A DNA stretch of 41,006 bases from Klebsiella pneumoniae (GTDB taxonomy: Bacteria; Pseudomonadota; Gammaproteobacteria; Ga0077536). The stretch covers positions 1 through 41,006 of the forward strand of contig CAMCQE010000021.1 in assembly GCA_945876945.1 (NCBI GenBank), given 5' to 3'. Below, piece after piece: positions 19,996 through 30,190 of this stretch; positions within the stretch are counted from its first letter, which is position 1, and every line of letters begins with the position of its first letter. The translations under genes were made by a program, and so were the position numbers. The notes beneath the pieces were generated by a model that saw only the letters and a list, made by a program, of their open reading frames with translations, did not search any database and had not been told where the DNA came from.

Positions 19996-20718
19996 ATGAA
20001 TGAACGCGCCCCTGCCGGAATCGTGGTAGCACTTGAGGCCGAAGCCTCAAGCTGCGAACGCTGGCGACAATCTGGCGAGATTTGCATCAAGTTAACCGGT
20101 CCGGGCGCGGAACGTGCGGCTGCAGGCGCCCGGTCACTGGTAGACGAAGGCGTGAGCTGTCTTGTGAGTTGGGGAACCAGCGGTGCGCTGGCGCCAGACC
20201 TGCGAGCTGGCGCGTTACTCATCGTGACGCACACTACCGACTCGATCGGCAACGAGTACACGAGCGATATCCGACTGGTCGAAGGCTTTCGAGTCGCCCT
20301 CGGCACGCTTTCGCCATCACTCGGACGTGCCCTTACCGTCGACGCTCCCGTGATGGGTCAGGCGTGCAAGCTTGACCTCGCCGGCCGCTATGCGGCCACA
20401 TCAGTCGACATGGAATCTGCCGCGGTGGCCGAGGTGGCCCGCGGCGCGGGGCTGCCGTTCGTGGCCGTTCGCGCGGTGGTTGACGCGCTCACTTTCGACA
20501 TTCCACTGGCAGCCTGCGCCGGAATGGGCGAAGACGGCGTTTCACGCCCCCTGCGGGTGTTGTCCGCGCTCGCCGCACGTCCGTTTGAATTGCCGCAACT
20601 GCTCAGGCTGGCGGCACACTTCTCCGCCGCCTGCAGAACGCTCAAATCTGCCGCCAGCCTGTTGGAAAACGACTCGTGGTCAAATCCTTTGGTGCCTACC
20701 GTGGGAGCAATGCGGTGA
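19996..20718 (+). CDS. hpnG: Hopanoid-associated nucleoside phosphorylase HpnG
   Basis: A 240-residue member of the purine nucleoside phosphorylase/MTA nucleosidase superfamily. The N-terminal strand IVVALEAEAS, the glycine-rich WGTSGALAP and the ribose-binding TSVDMESAAVA (Asp138-Met-Glu140) are visible. In hopanoid clusters HpnG removes adenine from adenosylhopane, the HpnH product, to give (phospho)ribosylhopane, the precursor of bacteriohopanetetrol. hpnH is in this window at 29060. It follows the squalene synthase by 35 bases. The stop overlaps the GTG start of the next gene by 3 bases within a GTGA, so translation is probably coupled. Confidence 0.85.
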   Translation: MNERAPAGIVVALEAEASSCERWRQSGEICIKLTGPGAERAAAGARSLVDEGVSCLVSWGTSGALAPDLRAGALLIVTHTTDSIGNEYTSDIRLVEGFRVALGTLSPSLGRALTVDAPVMGQACKLDLAGRYAATSVDMESAAVAEVARGAGLPFVAVRAVVDALTFDIPLAACAGMGEDGVSRPLRVLSALAARPFELPQLLRLAAHFSAACRTLKSAASLLENDSWSNPLVPTVGAMR

Positions 20719-21326
20719 CGCAGCGCTCGAAGCCCTACGACGCGCAGCTCGCAGCCTGGCTGGTTGGTCCGCTGGCGCAAGGCCCCATCACGCCCAATCA
20801 TCTGACCGCCTTGCGCCTGCTGACGGGCATGGCCGGCGCCTTCATTTTTGCTGTGTGCGAGGCACCTAATCTGGCCGCCTGGCTGATTGTGTTATCCAAC
20901 TTTCTAGACCACACCGATGGCGAACTGGCGCGACTCAGCGGCCGCCAAAGCAGGTTCGGCCACAACTTCGATCTGGTGTCAGACGCGCTGGTCACCAGCG
21001 GCATGTTCATCGGCATCGGTATCGGCCTACTGCAGGCGGAGGGCGCGTTCGCTTTGGTGCAGGGACTGGTGGCCGGACTGGCGGTTGCCGCCATCTTTCA
21101 TTTGCGCAATACCCTTGAAAGCCGTTACGGAAAGAACGTTACACGCCAGCCCCGTTGGGGAGGATTCGAGGCAGAAGACGTGCTTTACCTCATCCCGCTG
21201 ATGAGCCTCTCAGGAGAGCTAAAACTCTTTCTTGCGGCCGCGAGCATGGGAGCACCCATCGCGTTGGTCATTGTTGTCCTTCATTACCGTGCGGTTGAAC
21301 GACGCGCGCAGGGTGAGCTTTCATGA
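20715..21326 (+). CDS. CDP-alcohol phosphotransferase (candidate AEP-lipid transferase)
   Basis: A 203-residue multi-pass membrane protein carrying the complete CDP-alcohol phosphotransferase signature DxxDGxxAR(x8)GxxxDxxxD: Asp65, Asp68-Gly69, Ala72-Arg73, Gly82, Asp86 and Asp90. All four metal-binding aspartates are present, so it should be active. Such enzymes move a phosphoalcohol (or phosphonate) between a CMP-linked donor and a hydroxyl, in the membrane. The start is GTG at 20715, with GGGAG 7 bases upstream; it overlaps the hpnG stop, and the gene's own stop overlaps hpnA by 4 bases. Because this operon encodes AEP synthesis and two nucleotidyltransferases, CMP-AEP is the likeliest donor. 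The acceptor, diacylglycerol or a hydroxylated hopanoid, cannot be read from sequence. A phosphatidylglycerol- or inositol-type reaction is the alternative. Confidence 0.85.
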   Translation: MTQRSKPYDAQLAAWLVGPLAQGPITPNHLTALRLLTGMAGAFIFAVCEAPNLAAWLIVLSNFLDHTDGELARLSGRQSRFGHNFDLVSDALVTSGMFIGIGIGLLQAEGAFALVQGLVAGLAVAAIFHLRNTLESRYGKNVTRQPRWGGFEAEDVLYLIPLMSLSGELKLFLAAASMGAPIALVIVVLHYRAVERRAQGELS

Positions 21327-22312
21327 GCATTCTGGTGACGGGCGCATCCGGTTTTGTGGGCAGTGCGGTGGTTCGAGCGCTGCTCGCGCAAAACGAAAAG
21401 GTGCGAGTGCTGGTGAGGCCCGCCAGCGATCGAAGCAATGTGCGGAATCTTGCCATCGAGCTTGTCGAAGGCGACTTGCGCGACCCTGCCTCATTACAGC
21501 GAGCCTGCGCCGGCTGCCGCGGGCTCTATCACGTGGCGGCTGACTATCGACTGTGGACGCGCGATCCCAACGAACTCTACGCAAGCAATGTCGAAGGCAC
21601 TCGCCATCTGATGAGCGCCGCGCTTAAAGCCAAGATCCCCCGCATTGTTTACACCAGCAGCGTGGCCACGCTCGGCATCCACCCCGATGGCACTGCCGCC
21701 ACCGAAGACACGCCGGTCACAGAGGCCGATATGATCGGGCATTACAAGCGCTCGAAATTTCTGGCCGAAGCGCTGGTTCAGCAACTCGTGCAACAGGAGG
21801 GTCTGCCCGCCGTTATCGTCAACCCGTCGACGCCAATCGGTCCCCATGATGTGAAGCCCACCCCCACCGGACGGATGATTCGGGATGCGTGGTTCGGCCG
21901 GATCCCGGCCTATGTTGATACCGGGCTTAACATTGTTCACGTGGAAGACGTGGCACACGGTCATCTGCTGGCGTTTGCCACGGGCGCAATTGGGAGACGC
22001 TACATTCTTGGCGGAGAGGACATGGCGCTCCGCGACATTCTCGCCGTGATCGCGGAGCTCGCCGGGCGTTCGCCGCCGCGCATCGAGCTCCCGCGATTGG
22101 GCCTCATGCCTGTCGCGGCACTCGCCGAAGCATGGGCATGGTTAACCCATGGCAAAGAGCCGCAAGTCACGCTGGACGGCTTGCGCATGTCGCGCAAGAA
22201 GATGTTTTTCGATTCTTCGCGCGCGGTGCAGGAACTGGGCTACAGCTTTCGGCCGGCCAGGGCCGCGCTTGCCGCCGCCGTTGAATGGTTCAGCCAGCGA
22301 CCTGATCGCTGA
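21323..22312 (+). CDS. hpnA: Hopanoid-associated sugar epimerase HpnA
   Basis: A 329-residue extended short-chain dehydrogenase/reductase. The Rossmann motif GASGFVG is at residues 7-13, and the catalytic pair Tyr141 and Lys145 lies in HYKRSKF, with a serine-rich VYTSSVATLG strand before it. VNPSTPIGPHDVKPTPTG and the NIVHVEDVAHGH region are typical of the HpnA family in hopanoid loci. Its exact substrate is not established; a sugar-nucleotide or the ribosyl side chain of a hopanoid are possibilities. It overlaps the CDP-alcohol phosphotransferase by 4 bases and is followed after 2 bases by a nucleotidyltransferase, tying it to both the hopanoid and phosphonate genes. Confidence 0.88.
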   Translation: MSILVTGASGFVGSAVVRALLAQNEKVRVLVRPASDRSNVRNLAIELVEGDLRDPASLQRACAGCRGLYHVAADYRLWTRDPNELYASNVEGTRHLMSAALKAKIPRIVYTSSVATLGIHPDGTAATEDTPVTEADMIGHYKRSKFLAEALVQQLVQQEGLPAVIVNPSTPIGPHDVKPTPTGRMIRDAWFGRIPAYVDTGLNIVHVEDVAHGHLLAFATGAIGRRYILGGEDMALRDILAVIAELAGRSPPRIELPRLGLMPVAALAEAWAWLTHGKEPQVTLDGLRMSRKKMFFDSSRAVQELGYSFRPARAALAAAVEWFSQRPDR

Positions 22313-22314
22313 AT

Positions 22315-23055
22315 ATGGATGCCATCCTGCTCGCTGCCGGGCTTGGCCACCGTCTGGGTCGCAGCGATGGCCGACCCAAAGCGCTGCTCGAGTTCGGCGG
22401 GCAATCCCTGCTGGCCAGGCATCTCGCGAACCTTGCGGATCTGGGCATTGAACGCGTCACTGTCTGTACCGGCTATCGCGCCGACCTGCTCGAACAGGCC
22501 ATTACGGCCTATCGTCGGCCCGAGACTAGCTGCATCGTGAATCCGGACTATCATCAAGGCAGCGTGAAAAGCCTCTGGACTGTCCGGGGCGCCTTACGAA
22601 GCGCAGGCGAGGTCTTATTGATGGACGCCGATGTGCTCTATCCTGCGAGCATCCTGCAGCGTCTGGCTGCCAGCGAGCACCGCAACTGCATGCTGCTCGA
22701 TCGCCACTACGTGCCGGGCGATGAACCCGTCAAGGTATGCGTTCACGCGGGCCAGATTGTGGAATTCAGCAAACGACCTGACCCAACTCTCACGTGGGAT
22801 TTCATGGGCGAATCGATCGGCTTTTTTAAATTCGATGCCGCTCTTGGCGCACGCTTGGCCGCCTTGACGGAAGCCTATGTGGCGGACGGCCGCAGCGACT
22901 CCCCTCACGAAGCGGCGATCCGCGATTTGATTCTGGCTGGCGACCACGGCATCGGGTTCGAAGACGTCAGCGGCGCGCCCTGGATCGAGATCGACTTTCC
23001 CGATGATATCCGCCGCGCCACCACCGAAATCCTGCCGGCGCTCGAACATGCTTGA
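22315..23055 (+). CDS. Stand-alone nucleotidyltransferase (LicC/PntC-like)
   Basis: A 246-residue NTP-transferase with the nucleotide-binding signature [10 protein letters not shown] (residues 6-15) followed by [10 protein letters not shown]. The metal-binding MDADVLY (about 102-108), [11 protein letters not shown] and the C-terminal [11 protein letters not shown] are as in phosphocholine- or sugar-phosphate cytidylyltransferases of the LicC type. It likely activates a small phosphate or phosphonate with CTP. It is the second nucleotidyltransferase of the operon, since a related domain is fused to the next gene. It may make CMP-AEP, or activate a different head group for the CDP-alcohol phosphotransferase. 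Its last 8 bases overlap the next start. Confidence 0.82.
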
Positions 23056-24694
23056 AGCCGCTTCAACACCGCCACGCCGCACGCGCCAACTGCGATCGCT
23101 GCTGGAATCGGCCGCGCTGGAGTTTTTACTTGAGGCCCACAACGGCCTGAGCGCGCGCATCGTCGAAGAAGCGGGCTTCAAAGGCATTTGGGCTAGCGGT
23201 CTCGCGATCTCCGCCCAACTTGGCGTGCGTGACAACAACGAAGCGAGCTGGACGCAGGTGGTCGACGTTGCCGAATTCATGGCCGACGTCACCTCCATTC
23301 CTATCCTGCTGGACGGGGACACGGGCTACGGCAACTTCAACAACATGCGTCGGCTGGTACGAAAACTCGAGCAACGCGGCGTCGCCGGTGTCTGCATCGA
23401 AGACAAGCTCTTTCCCAAAACCAACAGCTTTATTGCTGGCGACCGTCAGCCGCTGGCCGAGGTCAATGAATTCTGCGGCAAAATCGCCGCCGGCAAGGAC
23501 ATCCAGTCGGATGACGACTTCTGCATCGTGGCTCGCGTCGAAGCGCTCATCGCTGGCTGGGACATGGCCGAAGCGCTGCGCCGGGCCGAGGCTTATCGAG
23601 TGGCCGGGGCGGATGCCGTTCTTATCCACAGCAAGCTTTCCCGGCCCGATCAAATCCTCGAGTTTGCTCAGGAATGGGCCAATCGCCTGCCCTTGGTGAT
23701 TGTCCCGACCAAGTACTACAGCACGCCGACTGAGGTGTTTCGGCGGGCCGGTATCAGCGCGGTGATTTGGGCTAATCCGCTCATTCGGGCGGCGGCGTCT
23801 GCCATGCAGAGCGTGGCGGCGCAGATTCAGCGCGAACAATCGATCGCAGAAGTTGAAGACCGCATTGCCTCGATGGAAGAGATCTTCCGCCTGCAGGGCG
23901 CCGAAGAACTCGAAGCAGCGGAAGAGCGGTATTTCGGTGCCCGACAAAACGAAACCCGCGCGATTGTGCTCGCCGCCTCACGCGGCGAAGGCTTTGCCAG
24001 CCTGACCGATGACCGGCCCAAGGTCATGCTCCCCATCGCGGGCAAACCGCTACTCCGTCATCTGGTCGACAAGCTTAAAAAACGCGGCATTGACGACATT
24101 ACTGTGGTGGCCGGCTACAAGGCAGAAGCTATCGATATGGGCGGGATCCGGGTGCTGATTAACCCACAACACAGCACCACCGGCGAACTCTCCTCACTGC
24201 TCTGCGCGCGCCAGCATTTCACTGAGGACTTTGTGCTGATTTACGGCGACGTGCTGTTTCGCAGCTACATTCTGCGTGATCTGCTGGAGAGCGAAGCGCC
24301 CATCACGGTGGTGGTGGACTCCAGTCAGACCCAACTCACCAGCGATGCAGGTGATTTTGCCTGGTGTAGCGAGGCGGACGATCGCTCGAGCTGGGGCCAG
24401 GCGGTGCGCCTCAAAAAAATCAGTACCGGAGCGGGCAACAACGGCGCCGCGCCGCACGGCCGGTGGATCGGCATCGTTCGCGTGTGTGGGCCGGGCCGGG
24501 ACTGGTTCGAGGCCACGCTGGCCAGCTTACGCGAACGTGCAGACTTCGACCGCTTAAGCGTTCCTGACCTCATCAATCAGTTGATCGCTGACAACAAGCC
24601 GGTGCAGGTTTGGTACGTGCACGGGCACTGGCTTGATGTGAATTCGGTTCGCGATCTGGAACGCGCGGGCAATTTCGCTGCCGGCAGTCACTGA
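23048..24694 (+). CDS. pepM: Phosphoenolpyruvate mutase fused to a nucleotidyltransferase (PepM-PntC type)
   Basis: A 548-residue two-domain protein. Residues 1-300 are PEP mutase, which forms the carbon-phosphorus bond of phosphonopyruvate. They carry the metal-binding DGDTGYGN (from Asp89) and the diagnostic mutase motif [10 protein letters not shown] (118-127), which distinguishes PepM from isocitrate lyase-like relatives. Residues about 303-548 are a nucleotidyltransferase domain ([42 protein letters not shown]), as in PntC, which makes CMP-AEP. Its first motif has SRGEG rather than the GxGxR of the stand-alone neighbour. The ATG at 23048 lies inside the end of the preceding gene and gives a normal PepM N-terminus. 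phosphonopyruvate decarboxylase follows after 12 bases, which pulls the unfavourable PEP mutase reaction forward. Confidence 0.94.
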
Positions 24695-24706: not shown

Positions 24707-25855
24707 GTGATTGAGGCGAAGGTTTTTATCGAAACCGCGCGGTCGGCAGGCTTTGGCTGGTACACGGGCGTGCCGTGCTCCTACCTCACGCCGTTCATCA
24801 ATTACGTCATCGGCGACCAGTCGCTGAACTATGTCTCGGCGGCGAACGAAGGCGACGCCGTCGCGATCGCTGCCGGGCTGCATCTCGGTGGTCACCGCGC
24901 CGTGGTGATGATGCAGAACTCAGGTCTGGGGAATGCCGTGAGCCCGCTCAGCTCGCTGACGCATGTCTTCGGGATCCCGATGCTGCTCATCTGCACCCAC
25001 CGGGGCGCACCGGAGGTTCCGGATGAACCGCAACACGCCTTGATGGGACAGATCACCGGTCAGATGCTCGACACCTTGTCGATATGCTGGGAACCGTTTC
25101 CCGCGTCAGCGGCCGTGCTTGATGAAGCACTGGCGCGGGCGACCACGCACATGGCGCAGCATCACCAGCCCTACGCGTTCCTGATGCCCAAAGGCGCGGT
25201 CTCGCCCTATCCGCTGGCGCCGCAGCCGCCTCGCGCAGTGGCAGAGCCGCCCCCGGTGATGGGCGCACATTGGCCAGCGCAGCGCCCGACGCGGTCTGAG
25301 GTGCTAGCGCGGGTCATCGACGCCACACCGCTCACCGGCACCGTCGTGATTGCGACCACCGGCTACACGGGGCGGGAACTTTATGCGCTGACCGACCGCG
25401 CGAACCACTTCTATATGGTGGGATCGATGGGATGCGCCTCGGCCTTCGGCCTGGGGCTCGCGCTGGCCCGCCCAGACTTACACGTGGTGATCTTGGACGG
25501 CGACGGCGCCGCGCTGATGCGTATGGGCAATTTTGCGACTCTTGGCTATTACCGCCCGCCCAATCTTTCGCACCTGCTACTCGACAACGAGGCCCACGAT
25601 TCGACCGGCGGGCAAACCACGGTGAGCGCGGGGGTCGACTTCGCCAGTATTGCCGCAGCCTGCGGCTACGCGTCAGCACAGCGGGCGGGAAGTCTCGACG
25701 CGATAAGCCAATTTTTCGGCCGCCAAACAGGTGCTGGCCCCGGTTTTATGCACGTCAAAATCGCCACAGGCACGCTAAGCGATCTCCCGCGACCTGCAAT
25801 CACCCCGCCGGCTGTACTGGCGCGCTTAAGGCAGCATCTGGAAGGCACCGCATGA
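24707..25855 (+). CDS. ppd: Phosphonopyruvate decarboxylase
   Basis: A 382-residue thiamine diphosphate enzyme that decarboxylates phosphonopyruvate to phosphonoacetaldehyde. The family N-terminus is clear (FGWYTGVPCSYLTPFINYV, about residues 16-34), with AANEGDAVAIAAG and MMQNSGLGNAVSPLSSL near it. The TPP-binding GDG(x)n N motif is at Gly265-Asp266-Gly267 through DNEAHDSTGGQ. The start is GTG at 24707. Sulfopyruvate decarboxylase is related, but the flanking pepM and transaminase decide the assignment. Its stop overlaps the next ATG by 4 bases. Confidence 0.94.
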   Translation: MIEAKVFIETARSAGFGWYTGVPCSYLTPFINYVIGDQSLNYVSAANEGDAVAIAAGLHLGGHRAVVMMQNSGLGNAVSPLSSLTHVFGIPMLLICTHRGAPEVPDEPQHALMGQITGQMLDTLSICWEPFPASAAVLDEALARATTHMAQHHQPYAFLMPKGAVSPYPLAPQPPRAVAEPPPVMGAHWPAQRPTRSEVLARVIDATPLTGTVVIATTGYTGRELYALTDRANHFYMVGSMGCASAFGLGLALARPDLHVVILDGDGAALMRMGNFATLGYYRPPNLSHLLLDNEAHDSTGGQTTVSAGVDFASIAAACGYASAQRAGSLDAISQFFGRQTGAGPGFMHVKIATGTLSDLPRPAITPPAVLARLRQHLEGTA

Positions 25856-26937
25856 ATCGTCTTGTTCTGCTCAATCCGGGGCCGGTAAATCTGAGCGATC
25901 GCGTCCGGCAAGCGCTACAAAAGCCCGATCTCTGCCATCGGGAGGCAGAATTTGTCACGCTGCAGGCGTCGATTCAAAGCCGCCTGCTGCGGGTTTACGG
26001 GCTGGATAACACGGACTGGGCCGCCGTTTTGCTGACCGGATCGGGCACTGCGGCCGTTGAGGCAATGGTGACCAGCTGCGTGCCGCGAGGAGGCCGTCTG
26101 CTCGTGATGGACAACGGCGTGTATGGGGAGCGAATCAAGACGATGGCGGAACGCAGCGAGATCCCGGTCGCCATCGCGGCGAGCAACTGGTTATCGCCGC
26201 TTAACCTCGTTGCCGCGCGCGAGCAACTCGAGCGTTGTCCGGACATTACCCATGTGGCCGCCGTCCATCATGAAACCACCACCGGCCGGCTCAATGCAAT
26301 TGACCAGCTCGCAGCACTATGTCGGGAATTCAAGCGTCCGTTGTTGCTCGATGCGGTGAGCAGCTTTGGTGCTGAGACCATCGACTTCAATCGCTGGCCA
26401 ATCGCCGCCTGCGCGGCCACCGCCAACAAATGCCTGCACGGCGTACCAGGCGCATCGTTTGTGATCGTTAACCGGCATGCATTTGCGGAAGCCGGCGCGC
26501 CGGCGCGCTCGCTCTATCTCGATCTCGCCGGCTATCTGGCCCAACAGGATGCAGGCGGCACACCGTTCACCCAGTCGGTGCAGGCGTTTTATGCGCTCGA
26601 CGAAGCGCTCGGCGAATTCATGGATGCAGGTGGGGTCGCGGCAAGACAGCAAACGTATCGTCAACGGCTCGAACGGATTCACACCAAACTTGACACGTTG
26701 GGCGTCACAGGCTTGCTGCCGCAAGCAGACAGCGCTTGTGTGCTACACGCTTTTCAATTGCCTCAAGGATTCAGCTATCAGGCCCTGCACGACGGCCTCA
26801 AGGCGCGAGGCTTCGTCATTTATGCCGGGCAAGGACGCTTGGCGGCGAGCATGTTCCGCATTTCGATGATGGGCGACATTGGGGAGTCAGACCTGCTCCG
26901 TTTGGAGCAGGCCTTGAGCGAGGTGCTGAACCGCTGA
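25852..26937 (+). CDS. phnW: 2-aminoethylphosphonate transaminase
   Basis: A 361-residue fold-type I PLP enzyme. It begins with the PhnW signature LLNPGPVNLS and CHREAEF, has the cofactor-binding TGSGTAAVEAM, the DAVSSFGAE strand and the PLP lysine Lys193 in ATANKCLHGVPG. It interconverts phosphonoacetaldehyde and AEP. In phosphonate catabolism it runs toward the aldehyde, but beside pepM and ppd, and with no phnX, phnA or phosphonate transporter nearby, it should make AEP. It is the last gene of the operon; its ATG overlaps the ppd stop by 4 bases, and dxs converges 12 bases downstream with no terminator visible. Confidence 0.93.
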   Translation: MNRLVLLNPGPVNLSDRVRQALQKPDLCHREAEFVTLQASIQSRLLRVYGLDNTDWAAVLLTGSGTAAVEAMVTSCVPRGGRLLVMDNGVYGERIKTMAERSEIPVAIAASNWLSPLNLVAAREQLERCPDITHVAAVHHETTTGRLNAIDQLAALCREFKRPLLLDAVSSFGAETIDFNRWPIAACAATANKCLHGVPGASFVIVNRHAFAEAGAPARSLYLDLAGYLAQQDAGGTPFTQSVQAFYALDEALGEFMDAGGVAARQQTYRQRLERIHTKLDTLGVTGLLPQADSACVLHAFQLPQGFSYQALHDGLKARGFVIYAGQGRLAASMFRISMMGDIGESDLLRLEQALSEVLNR

Positions 26938-26949
26938 AGGCGCGCGACG

Positions 26950-28824
26950 CTAGGCTTTCTGCAGGGTTTCCCACCGCGCCTTGATTGCGGCTTCCATTTG
27001 CGGGACATCCAGCCCCGCCTCGCGCAGCATGTCTTCACGCGCTCCGTGCTGAATGAAGCAATCGGGCAAGCCGAGGTGCAAAACCTGAGCGGCAACGCCG
27101 TGTTCGGCCAGCGCCTCGGTTACGGCGCCACCGGCACCGCCCACAATGGTGTTTTCGTCCAGCGTGACCAGCAAATCGTGGGACGCGGCCATCTTCAACA
27201 CCAGCTCGGCATCGATGGGTTTGATGAAGCGCATGTTGACCACCGTGGCATCCAGACGCGCCCCGATTTCTTCCGCCGCCGCCACGAGACTACCAAAGGC
27301 CAAGAGTGCGATGCCGCGCCCTTCGCGCCGAATTTCGGCTTTACCAATCGGCAGGCAGGTCATCTGCTTCTCGACCGGCACCCCGGTGCCGCCGCCGCGC
27401 GGGTAGCGCACCGCTGCAGGACCATCAACGCAAAAGCCGGTGTAGAGCATCTGGCGGCATTCGTTCTCATCGGCAGGGGCCATGAACACAAGCCCCGGCA
27501 TACAGCGCATGAAACTCACGTCGAAACTGCCGTTGTGGGTAGGTCCATCGGCGCCCACTACCCCGGCACGGTCGATGGCGAACAACACGGGCAGGCCCTG
27601 CGTCACCACGTCGTGCACAGCCTGATCGTAGCCGCGCTGCAGGAAGGTGGAGTAAATCGCTACGACCGGCTTTACGCCGTCGCAGGCCATGCCGGCGGCA
27701 ACCGCCACGGCATGCTGTTCGGCGATCGCGACGTCGAAATAGCGGTCCGGATATTCGCGGGCATAACGCACGAGACCCGAGCCTTCGCGCATCGCCGGCG
27801 TAATGGCAACGAGGCGGGGGTCTTGCGCGGCCATATCGCAAATCCACTCGCCGAATACGTCGCTGTAGCTGAGTTTGGGCGTTTTGCCGGACGGCACGAT
27901 GCCCACAGAAGGATCAAACGGCGACACTCCGTGATATTTGACGGGGTCGGCTTCGGCCGGGGCATATCCTTTGCCCTTCTTGGTGATGATGTGCAAAAAC
28001 TGGGGGCCGCTCAGTTCCTTGATGTTCTTCAAGGTCGACAACAGCGTGGGCAGATGGTGCCCATCGATCGGGCCGATGTAGTTGAACCCGAATTCTTCGA
28101 ACAGGGTGCCGGGAACAACCAGACCTTTCACATGCTCTTCGGCTCGCCGCGCCAGTTCCCACACGTTAGGCATCTGCGACAGCACTTTCTTGCTGCCTTC
28201 GCGCACCGTGGTGTAGAGCTTGCCGGAAATCAGCTGCGCGAAGCGATTGGCCAAGGCGCCAACGTTGGGCGAAATCGACATGTTGTTGTCGTTGAGGATC
28301 ACCAGCAGGTCGGTGCCGGTATCGCCCGCATGATTGAGGGCTTCAAACGCAAGGCCTGCGGTAATGCCGCCGTCGCCAATTACCGCGACCGCGCGACGTC
28401 CGCTACCGGTTTGCTTGGCGGCGATGGCCATGCCGAGGGCGGCGCTGATGGAGGTGCTGGAATGGCCAACACCAAAGGCGTCGTACGGGCTTTCCTCGCG
28501 TTTGGGAAATGGGGCCACACCCTGCCATTGGCGGATGGTGTGCATCCGGTCGCGCCGACCGGTAAGAATTTTATGGGGATAGGCCTGATGCCCCACGTCC
28601 CACACCAGACGATCTTCTGGCGTGTTGTAGAGGTAGTGCAAGGCGACGGTGAGTTCCACCGAACCCAGGCCGGCGGCGAAATGTCCACCGCTTTGGCTGA
28701 CAGAATCCAGCAGGTATCCGCGAAGTTCGCGCGCCACCTGTTCCAGAGACGATTCTGGTAGTGCGCGTAAATCATGGGGTGAGTTAATCCGCGAGAGTAG
28801 CGGATACTGGCTTTGCTCGGTCAT
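26950..28824 (-). CDS. dxs: 1-deoxy-D-xylulose-5-phosphate synthase
   Basis: A 624-residue TPP enzyme condensing pyruvate with glyceraldehyde 3-phosphate, the first and flux-controlling step of the MEP pathway. Visible are [31 protein letters not shown], the TPP motif [14 protein letters not shown] through [13 protein letters not shown], and the transketolase-like C-terminal half ([23 protein letters not shown]). Full length. It stands between two hopanoid operons, so it probably supports their precursor demand. A candidate promoter lies about 50 bases upstream. The adjacent 235-base region (28825-29059) is the only sizeable intergenic gap between dxs and hpnH and should hold the promoters of both. 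Confidence 0.97.
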
Positions 28825-28900: not shown

Positions 28901-29059
28901 GCCAAGGGGCTGAGCAGGGCCGGTTCGCTGCACCTGCGTCATTGGATGCAGGCGTGCGCTTCCGATGCTTTTATCAATGTCGTACCATGCCCAGCTTCCA
29001 GCCTATTAATCCTTTGAATCGCAGTGGTTTATTGCCAGCTGCCCCGGGGTCTTCAAAGC

Positions 29060-30190
29060 ATGAGTGTTCCGTTTATCCAACAGTACCGAGTCGCCCGCTA
29101 CATCATCAGCAACAAGCTGCGCGGGATTAAACGCTACCCTCTCGTCCTGATGCTTGAACCCCTCTTCCGTTGCAATCTGGCCTGCGCTGGCTGCGGCAAG
29201 ATTGATTATCCAGACGAGATTCTCGACAAGCGCCTCAGCGTTGAAGAATGCATGCAGGCGGTTGATGAAAGTGGCGCGCCGGTGGTGTCTATCGCCGGTG
29301 GCGAGCCGCTGATTCACAAAGAAATGGCCCAGATCGTCAAAGGCTATGTGGAACGCAAGAAGTTCGTTTATCTCTGCACCAACGCGCTCCTGCTCGACCG
29401 CAAGATGGACGAATACACCCCGTCGCCCTATCTGACCTTCTCCATCCATCTCGATGGCAACAAGGAACGGCATGACAACTCGGTCTGCCGTGAGGGCGTG
29501 TATGAAAAGTGCGAGCAGGTCATTCGCAAAGCCCGCGCGCGCGGTTTCCGGGTAACGGTCAACTGCACCCTCTTCCAGGGCGAAACTGCCCCGGAAATCG
29601 GCCAGTTCATGGACCGCATGATGGCGCTTGACGTTGAGGCAGTGACGATGTCGCCCGGCTACAGCTACGAGCGTGCGCCACGGCAGGACGTCTTCCTGAA
29701 GCGCGAATCCAGCAAGCAACTCTTCCGGGATATTTTCAAACTCGGGCAAGGCAAGAAGTGGCGCTTTAACCAGTCGCCGCTGTACATGGATTTTCTGGCC
29801 GGTAACCAAACCTATCACTGCACGCCGTGGGGCGCGGTCACGCGCAACGTCTTCGGCTGGCAGAAACCCTGCTATCTGCTGGTGGGCGAGGGTTACGCCA
29901 AGACCTTTGACGCCCTCATGAATGAGACGGAGTGGGATCGCTACGGCACCGGGGTCAACCCCAAATGCGCCAACTGCATGATGCATTGCGGTTATGAAAT
30001 GACCGCCGTCGACGACACCTTTTCCCACCCGTTGAAAGCCGCCAAGGTGGCCTTCTTTGGTCCCAAAACCTCCGGACCGATGGCGCCGGAAGTCCCGTTC
30101 CGTTATCCGGAGCCAGTGCCCAACGCACCCCGACCGGTTGCGATCGCCGACAGCGACGCCGACAACAGTTCCAGCAAGCGCGTCGCCTGA
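29060..30190 (+). CDS. hpnH: Adenosylhopane synthase HpnH (radical SAM)
   Basis: A 376-residue radical SAM enzyme that joins the 5'-deoxyadenosyl group to diploptene (hopene), creating adenosylhopane, the entry to all C35 hopanoids. The cluster motif CNLACAGC holds Cys38, Cys42 and Cys45, in the hallmark stretch YPLVLMLEPLFRC. The C-terminal NPKCANCMMHCGYE carries further cysteines typical of the family. The ATG at 29060 matches known HpnH N-termini (MSVPF), so the 12 extra codons upstream were left out. It starts the second hopanoid operon, hpnH-hpnB-hpnM-mlaA. HpnG, which acts on its product, is in the first operon. Confidence 0.96.
   Translation: MSVPFIQQYRVARYIISNKLRGIKRYPLVLMLEPLFRCNLACAGCGKIDYPDEILDKRLSVEECMQAVDESGAPVVSIAGGEPLIHKEMAQIVKGYVERKKFVYLCTNALLLDRKMDEYTPSPYLTFSIHLDGNKERHDNSVCREGVYEKCEQVIRKARARGFRVTVNCTLFQGETAPEIGQFMDRMMALDVEAVTMSPGYSYERAPRQDVFLKRESSKQLFRDIFKLGQGKKWRFNQSPLYMDFLAGNQTYHCTPWGAVTRNVFGWQKPCYLLVGEGYAKTFDALMNETEWDRYGTGVNPKCANCMMHCGYEMTAVDDTFSHPLKAAKVAFFGPKTSGPMAPEVPFRYPEPVPNAPRPVAIADSDADNSSSKRVA

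Follow-up and report, generated by a model that had tools for sequence, protein, structure and literature searches.

The window (the whole stretch of DNA analysed, 41,006 nucleotides of contig CAMCQE010000021.1) contains two nucleotidyltransferases in tandem, one free and the other forming the C-terminal part of PEP mutase (PepM), within a group of genes for the synthesis of 2-aminoethylphosphonate (AEP) and hopanoids (Table 1). The free protein comprises 246 amino acids, reading from ATG at 22315 to a stop codon at 23053-23055. The PepM-nucleotidyltransferase fusion comprises 548 amino acids, from ATG at 23048 to a stop codon at 24692-24694; a further in-frame ATG at 23003 marks the mechanical maximum of the frame, and the PepM alignment agrees with a start at 23048. 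In a Pfam search the free protein was assigned to PF12804 (2e-18), and the fusion to PF13714 (3e-61) together with PF12804 (2e-15). These data bear out the claim of an earlier note on this DNA that a free LicC/PntC-like gene is adjacent to a relative fused to PepM and overlaps it by 8 bases.

Table 1. Features of the locus, with their positions in the window. Only the start is given for the outer genes.
Feature	Position	Strand	Evidence
Polyprenyl-synthase-like gene	17623 (start)		
Squalene-synthase-like gene	18875 (start)		
HpnG-like gene	19996 (start)		
CDP-alcohol phosphatidyltransferase, proposed phosphonolipid-forming transferase	20676..21326	+	PF01066 E 2e-14
HpnA, hopanoid-associated epimerase, between CDP-alcohol transferase and free nucleotidyltransferase	21323..22312	+	TIGR03466 above cutoff
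Free cytidylyltransferase (PntC-type), proposed CTP:AEP cytidylyltransferase	22315..23055	+	PF12804
PepM with C-terminal nucleotidyltransferase-like domain (AepX-type fusion)	23048..24694	+	TIGR02320 above cutoff
Overlap of the two genes, 8 bp, ATGCTTGA	23048..23055	+	
PEP mutase domain of fusion	23048..23935	+	PF13714 E 3e-61
Fused nucleotidyltransferase-like domain; P-loop LAASRGEGF, without GxGxR arginine; keeps K325, D401, W473, W528, N532	23957..24691	+	
Phosphonopyruvate decarboxylase (Ppd)	24707..25855	+	TIGR03297 above cutoff
AEP aminotransferase (AEPT)	25825..26937	+	TIGR03301 above cutoff
DXS-like gene	26950 (start)	other strand	
HpnH, adenosyl-hopene transferase, neighbouring hopanoid gene	29024..30190	+	TIGR03470 above cutoff
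HpnB	30242 (start)		
199-aa ORF	31379 (start)		
MlaA	31993 (start)		

The phosphonate pathway and its hopanoid setting

The PepM part of the fusion contains the EDKxxxxxNS motif and scores 394 bits against TIGR02320, for which the cutoff is 320. It superimposes on the mussel PEP mutase 1pym with a TM-score of 0.96, and is 64-65% identical to solved PEP mutase. A structure search with the full-length fusion returned PepM relatives among the matches listed; the model of the fusion has a pTM of 0.56, with uncertain inter-domain geometry. All structure predictions were run without plasmid-derived alignment rows.

PepM, Ppd and AEPT all score above the curated NCBIfam cutoffs, so that the AEP pathway is complete; HpnA and HpnH also exceed theirs. 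PepM would convert PEP to phosphonopyruvate, from which Ppd and AEPT would generate AEP. The free nucleotidyltransferase would join AEP and CTP to give CMP-AEP, and the CDP-alcohol phosphotransferase would pass the phosphonate head group to what is presumably a lipid, in a Kennedy-type pathway. The AEP genes, an activating enzyme and a CDP-alcohol phosphotransferase, i.e. the gene content of a phosphonolipid pathway, are found together, and judged from these genes the cluster probably makes carbon-phosphorus membrane lipids. The acceptor could be a hopanoid or a glycerolipid.

Between 17623 and 32814 the phosphonate head-group genes are interleaved with those for HpnG-like, HpnA, HpnH, HpnB, DXS and MlaA proteins, in an order that is kept across the family. 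Roseomonas too has hopanoid genes neighbouring the cluster, and in Pandoraea HpnH is close by. Some relatives carry genes for a HalD-like 2OG-Fe(II) oxygenase and an HpnL-like protein of the LPG-synthase-TM type (L255:1466-2305, L255:2302-3288 and L187:7301-9018). A 587-codon open frame antisense to the DXS gene (26998-28761 on the + strand) is probably a high-GC shadow ORF.

The free nucleotidyltransferase resembles assayed PntC

The free protein retains the canonical loop, as the earlier note stated. Its top match among PDB sequences is the PntC-AEPT protein of Treponema denticola (6pd1/6pd2; E 5e-11 for the single sequence, 4e-30 for the profile), and a Foldseek search with its predicted structure (pLDDT 94.9) also ranked 6pd2 first, with a TM-score of 0.86. 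R13, K22, D104, D106, K153, E166, E199, E225 and D227 are invariant among 80-81 homologues. R13, K22 and K153 correspond to R15, K25 and K153 of Tde-PntC, each of which reduces activity to below 10% when replaced by alanine (Rice et al. 2019, PMC6697681).

The acidic residues of the amine site are D104 and E199, both invariant; the first is aspartate as in LicC, not glutamate. The corresponding pair is Glu/Glu in Tde-PntC (E104/E196) and Asp/Asp in LicC (PMC6697681), so that a preference of the free enzyme for AEP is likely rather than proved. LicC, a CTP:phosphocholine cytidylyltransferase, shares fold and motifs with the free protein (TM 0.76), which is nevertheless nearer to PntC by both sequence and fold.

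The free protein thus has a PF12804 fold closest to that of Tde-PntC, the catalytic residues, and linkage to ppm, ppd and aept. By sequence, modelled fold and invariant catalytic residues we assign it as a PntC, an assignment that is new here, and by homology to the assayed PntC we infer that it is the enzyme forming CMP-AEP.

The domain fused to PepM has lost the arginine of the GxGxR motif

The loop of the fused domain reads LAASRGEGF, again as had been noted. Where the GxGxR motif has its arginine, none of the aligned fused domains has R (86/86); the residues seen are E, G, N, A, D, K and S. The arginine is likewise missing from all C-terminal PepM fusions in the sampled Pseudomonadota and Cyanobacteria. 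In Roseomonas the loop is shortened further, to LAASAGDVGDPGQPK. The neighbouring Arg312 is conserved as R in 81 of the 86, certain lineages having Q, K or A instead. The column of the free enzyme's K153 is unconserved in the fused domain (H, K, R, Q, D or N), the position of D104 is taken by Tyr399, and the column of E199 is ambiguous. By contrast K325 (the lysine of the PK motif), Asp401, Trp473 and Trp528 are invariant save in a single row with a gap, and Asn532 is almost invariant, being Asp in distant members. The domain has in addition a conserved set of its own, comprising Y399, D424, C440, D444, G-x-W473-x-G and W528.

The fold is that of NTP_transf_3 (99.7% in hhalign against the free family), and the top PDB sequence match is LicC. 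Of the features expected of a PntC/LicC-type enzyme the PK motif is retained, while the GxGxR arginine and the amine-site acid are absent and K153 is not conserved. The GxGxR arginine sits in the pyrophosphate site and the conserved lysine at the alpha-phosphate (PMC6697681). Since the former is absent in all 86 sequences, the fused domain appears to have lost its pyrophosphate site, with much of the remaining nucleotide and metal site retained.

In a quick tree the fused domains form one clade (SH-aLRT 100) apart from the free enzymes, Tde-PntC and the rhizobial nucleotidyltransferases. Values of dN/dS are 0.09-0.16 for the fused domain, 0.15-0.21 for the free enzyme and 0.04-0.10 for PepM; these are rough values, because synonymous sites are near saturation in the wider comparisons. 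The ratio for the fused domain is lower than that for the free enzyme, so the domain is not decaying, and decay was rejected as an explanation. The degraded P-loop, most eroded in Roseomonas, might suggest a functionless remnant, but with invariant residues across phyla and a dN/dS below that of the free enzyme we regard this as scarcely credible. Rather, the sequences indicate a domain under purifying selection with invariant residues of its own; its separation as a clade and its missing arginine are new here.

A separate cytidylyltransferase accompanies the fusion

Scanning of a genome collection provided 80 related loci from other genomes (Gammaproteobacteria, Burkholderiaceae and Cyanobacteria). 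A free nucleotidyltransferase is present in the same stretch as the fusion in 74 of these, in 71 cases on the same strand and less than 400 bp from PepM; 55 of the 80 also have a CDP-alcohol transferase in the stretch. With 74/80 the pairing is not due to chance, but similarity to the fusion was the basis on which the loci were picked, and they include several close relatives, so that the counts do not represent independent events. Two members of the window's own genus (G003 and G007) have the free enzyme and Ppd in the hopanoid cluster, with PepM-nucleotidyltransferase, AEPT and CDP-alcohol transferase on another contig. In Roseomonas marmotae the free enzyme and the fusion are divergently oriented, adjoining hopanoid genes.

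We note a second locus in G003 and G007 (L254, L255) and in G005 (L263/L264), containing a CDP-alcohol transferase, hydroxylase and/or HpnL-like genes, PepM-nucleotidyltransferase and AEPT. Its fusion protein is only 63-65% identical to that of the window, and the locus may be a transferred cluster that has partly replaced the original.

PepM-bearing genomes within a sample of 398 Pseudomonadota and 292 Cyanobacteria were examined for a separate cytidylyltransferase. Every locus or genome with fused PepM that is complete enough to judge has such an enzyme or a homologue, of three kinds. The first is the free nucleotidyltransferase of the window, present in most PepM-bearing genomes and sometimes on another contig. 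The second is of the Tde-PntC type, found directly downstream of AEPT in G176, about 12 kb away in G324, and about 52 kb from PepM in Calothrix NIES-4101. The third is an unrelated PF01467 cytidylyltransferase, seen in G616, beside Ppd in G183, and at a second PepM locus in G176, the last two being assigned by similarity to the G616 protein. In G616 a PntC homologue was not found, the cluster having the PF01467 enzyme instead. This is fused to a PF04464 domain like CDP-glycerol glycerophosphotransferase (L253:14498-16051) and lies near PepM-nucleotidyltransferase, Ppd and AEPT; it is possibly an enzyme that both activates and transfers in the synthesis of a phosphonoglycan. The count leaves out the incomplete genomes G005, G031 and G235, the contig of the last stopping within ppd. 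The genus of G023 and G028 is a weak case, because its homologues outside the fusion are all divergent and the best is an orphan (31-32%) that lacks the K153 motif and has unrelated genes around it.

Absence of the free enzyme from some relatives was considered and rejected. Eight loci lack it in the fetched stretch, and each was accounted for individually. Unlinked copies exist for L088, L137 and L147 (the latter from G003), L093 has an enzyme of the Tde type, L084 and L052 have a weak orphan, and for L082 and L049 the contig starts 91 bp before PepM. The situation that the earlier note had taken as evidence against a division of roles, i.e. relatives all without the free enzyme and with the fused domain as sole AEP enzyme, was looked for and did not occur. 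Rhizobial clusters in which PepM is unfused have one canonical nucleotidyltransferase each. That of Sinorhizobium numidicum, on a plasmid typed as conjugative (L189:1358-7856), includes unfused PepM, a class I/II aminotransferase, the cytidylyltransferase and a CDP-alcohol transferase nearby, with no Ppd listed in the vicinity.

From the co-occurrence it follows that the fused domain alone does not suffice; it does not imply that the domain is inactive. The same Pfam family and a detectable common fold, and the third of known Ppm proteins that carry such a fusion (PMC6697681), would be compatible with both domains making CMP-AEP, the fused one as a redundant or channelled copy. This is very improbable given the absence of the pyrophosphate-site arginine and the amine-site acid, the separate clade, and the other cytidylyltransferase that accompanies the fusion even when unlinked.

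Comparison with known systems

Of the Ppm enzymes surveyed by Rice et al. (2019, PMC6697681), 33% carry a fused PF12804 domain and 2.9% have PF12804 together with PF01467, and some clusters hold both a ppm-fused and a separate nucleotidyltransferase. The window is therefore a new instance of a published arrangement. The triple fusions of Ppm, PF12804 and PF01467 (Rice et al. 2019) fit the rule of a separate cytidylyltransferase. The PntC proteins assayed as forming CMP-AEP, Ari1348 and Tde1415 (the latter fused to AEPT), are neither of them Ppm fusions, and no assay of a ppm-fused PF12804 domain was found in the part of that paper used here (PMC6697681).

The Pnt clusters of T. denticola, A. 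rimae and O. uli (PMC6697681) resemble the window in having a PepM-nucleotidyltransferase fusion, a separate nucleotidyltransferase one or two genes away, ppd and aept; moreover the separate enzyme of the window resembles their assayed Tde-PntC. They contain LicD-like or glycan genes, whereas the window has a CDP-alcohol phosphotransferase as acceptor enzyme, lies in a hopanoid cluster, and has directly overlapping nucleotidyltransferase genes.

In PMC5987646 (Fig. 7, after Yu et al. 2013) a cluster of the phosphonolipid type is drawn for Burkholderia and for Nostoc symbionts of lichens. It comprises CDP-alcohol transferase, 2OG-Fe(II) oxygenase, NTPT, pepM, ppd, AEPT and hpnL, and shares with the window the CDP-alcohol transferase, NTPT, pepM, ppd and AEPT. 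Homologous loci occur among the 80 scanned and in M. rhizoxinica. In contrast to that cluster, a homologue of the 2OG-Fe(II) oxygenase is missing from the genome of the window, there is no hpnL-type gene between HpnA and the free enzyme, and the genes are embedded among those for hopanoids.

The non-catalytic protein GMPPA binds GDP-mannose and regulates its paralogue GMPPB (PMC11228364). It is thus a precedent for regulation of an enzyme by a nucleotide-product-binding protein of nucleotidyltransferase fold. This is an analogy only; the partner of GMPPA is a paralogous pyrophosphorylase, while that in the window would be PEP mutase. Fom1 is also a fusion of PepM with a cytidylyltransferase, but there the domain belongs to PF01467, lies at the N-terminus and acts on HEP, whereas that of the window is PF12804, C-terminal and has an altered loop.

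Function of the fused domain

The fused domain could alternatively be an active cytidylyltransferase with another substrate (phosphonopyruvate, 1-hydroxy-AEP or a different head group), in which Arg312 takes the place of the usual arginine. Other CMP-acid synthetases employ different loops. With R at position 312 in most sequences an active enzyme with a non-canonical loop is possible, the retained K325, D401 and N532/D532 are compatible with catalysis, the domain's own conserved residues suggest a specific ligand, selection is strong, and the cytidylyltransferase of Fom1 is a precedent for an active PepM-fused domain (cited in PMC6697681). Against this, Arg312 is replaced in some lineages, the cluster has a single CDP-alcohol transferase and no second one, and five genomes (G000, G001, G004, G008 and G016) have no homologue of the head-group hydroxylase genome-wide and yet keep the fused domain. 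The domain is thus not tied to HAEP, and supply of a second head group by the hydroxylase was rejected as the reason for its presence. The domain also recurs in clusters with different downstream transferases. On balance we think a different-substrate enzyme rather unlikely.

The earlier note had proposed either a division of labour, with one enzyme for CMP-AEP and the other for activation of a second head group, or a structural or regulatory role for one of the domains. The first half of the former proposal is supported, the free protein being nearest to Tde-PntC by sequence and fold, with invariant catalytic residues; a second head group handled by the fused domain found no positive support. 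A structural or regulatory domain is favoured over a second head group, rather than established, by the arginine missing from all 86 sequences, by the further erosion of the loop among sister lineages, and by a separate cytidylyltransferase, from one family or another, wherever the data are sufficiently complete.

The simplest account of the co-occurrence is that the CMP-phosphonate comes from a separate enzyme, of whatever family, while the fused domain has a task connected with PepM. The latter would be a derived nucleotidyltransferase fold that has kept the alpha-phosphate lysine and metal site and lost the arginine of the pyrophosphate pocket, most likely binding a nucleotide or CMP-conjugate and tuning or scaffolding PepM. 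Gene content, fold and residues, the split into clades, co-occurrence and purifying selection are direct observations; the regulatory or scaffolding role is our best guess, made by analogy with GMPPA. The scheme as a whole, in which the CDP-alcohol transferase receives its CMP-AEP from the free enzyme and the fused domain tunes or scaffolds PepM instead of activating the head group, seems to us reasonably probable. More tentatively, the fused PF12804 domain might be a pseudo-nucleotidyltransferase that senses CTP or CMP-phosphonate and so controls entry into phosphonate synthesis.

Most deserving of pursuit is the rule on residues and co-occurrence that the fused domain follows, its co-occurrence half being new here. 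The rule gives a clear way to recognize the true PntC in each cluster. The survey of Rice et al. (2019, PMC6697681) counted domains fused to Ppm in favour of the view that phosphonate synthesis relies mainly on nucleotidyl activation. That view would need revision if the PF12804 domain of the fusions has no functional pyrophosphate site and is never a substitute for a separate cytidylyltransferase; a regulator of the step that forms the C-P bond may then have been overlooked.
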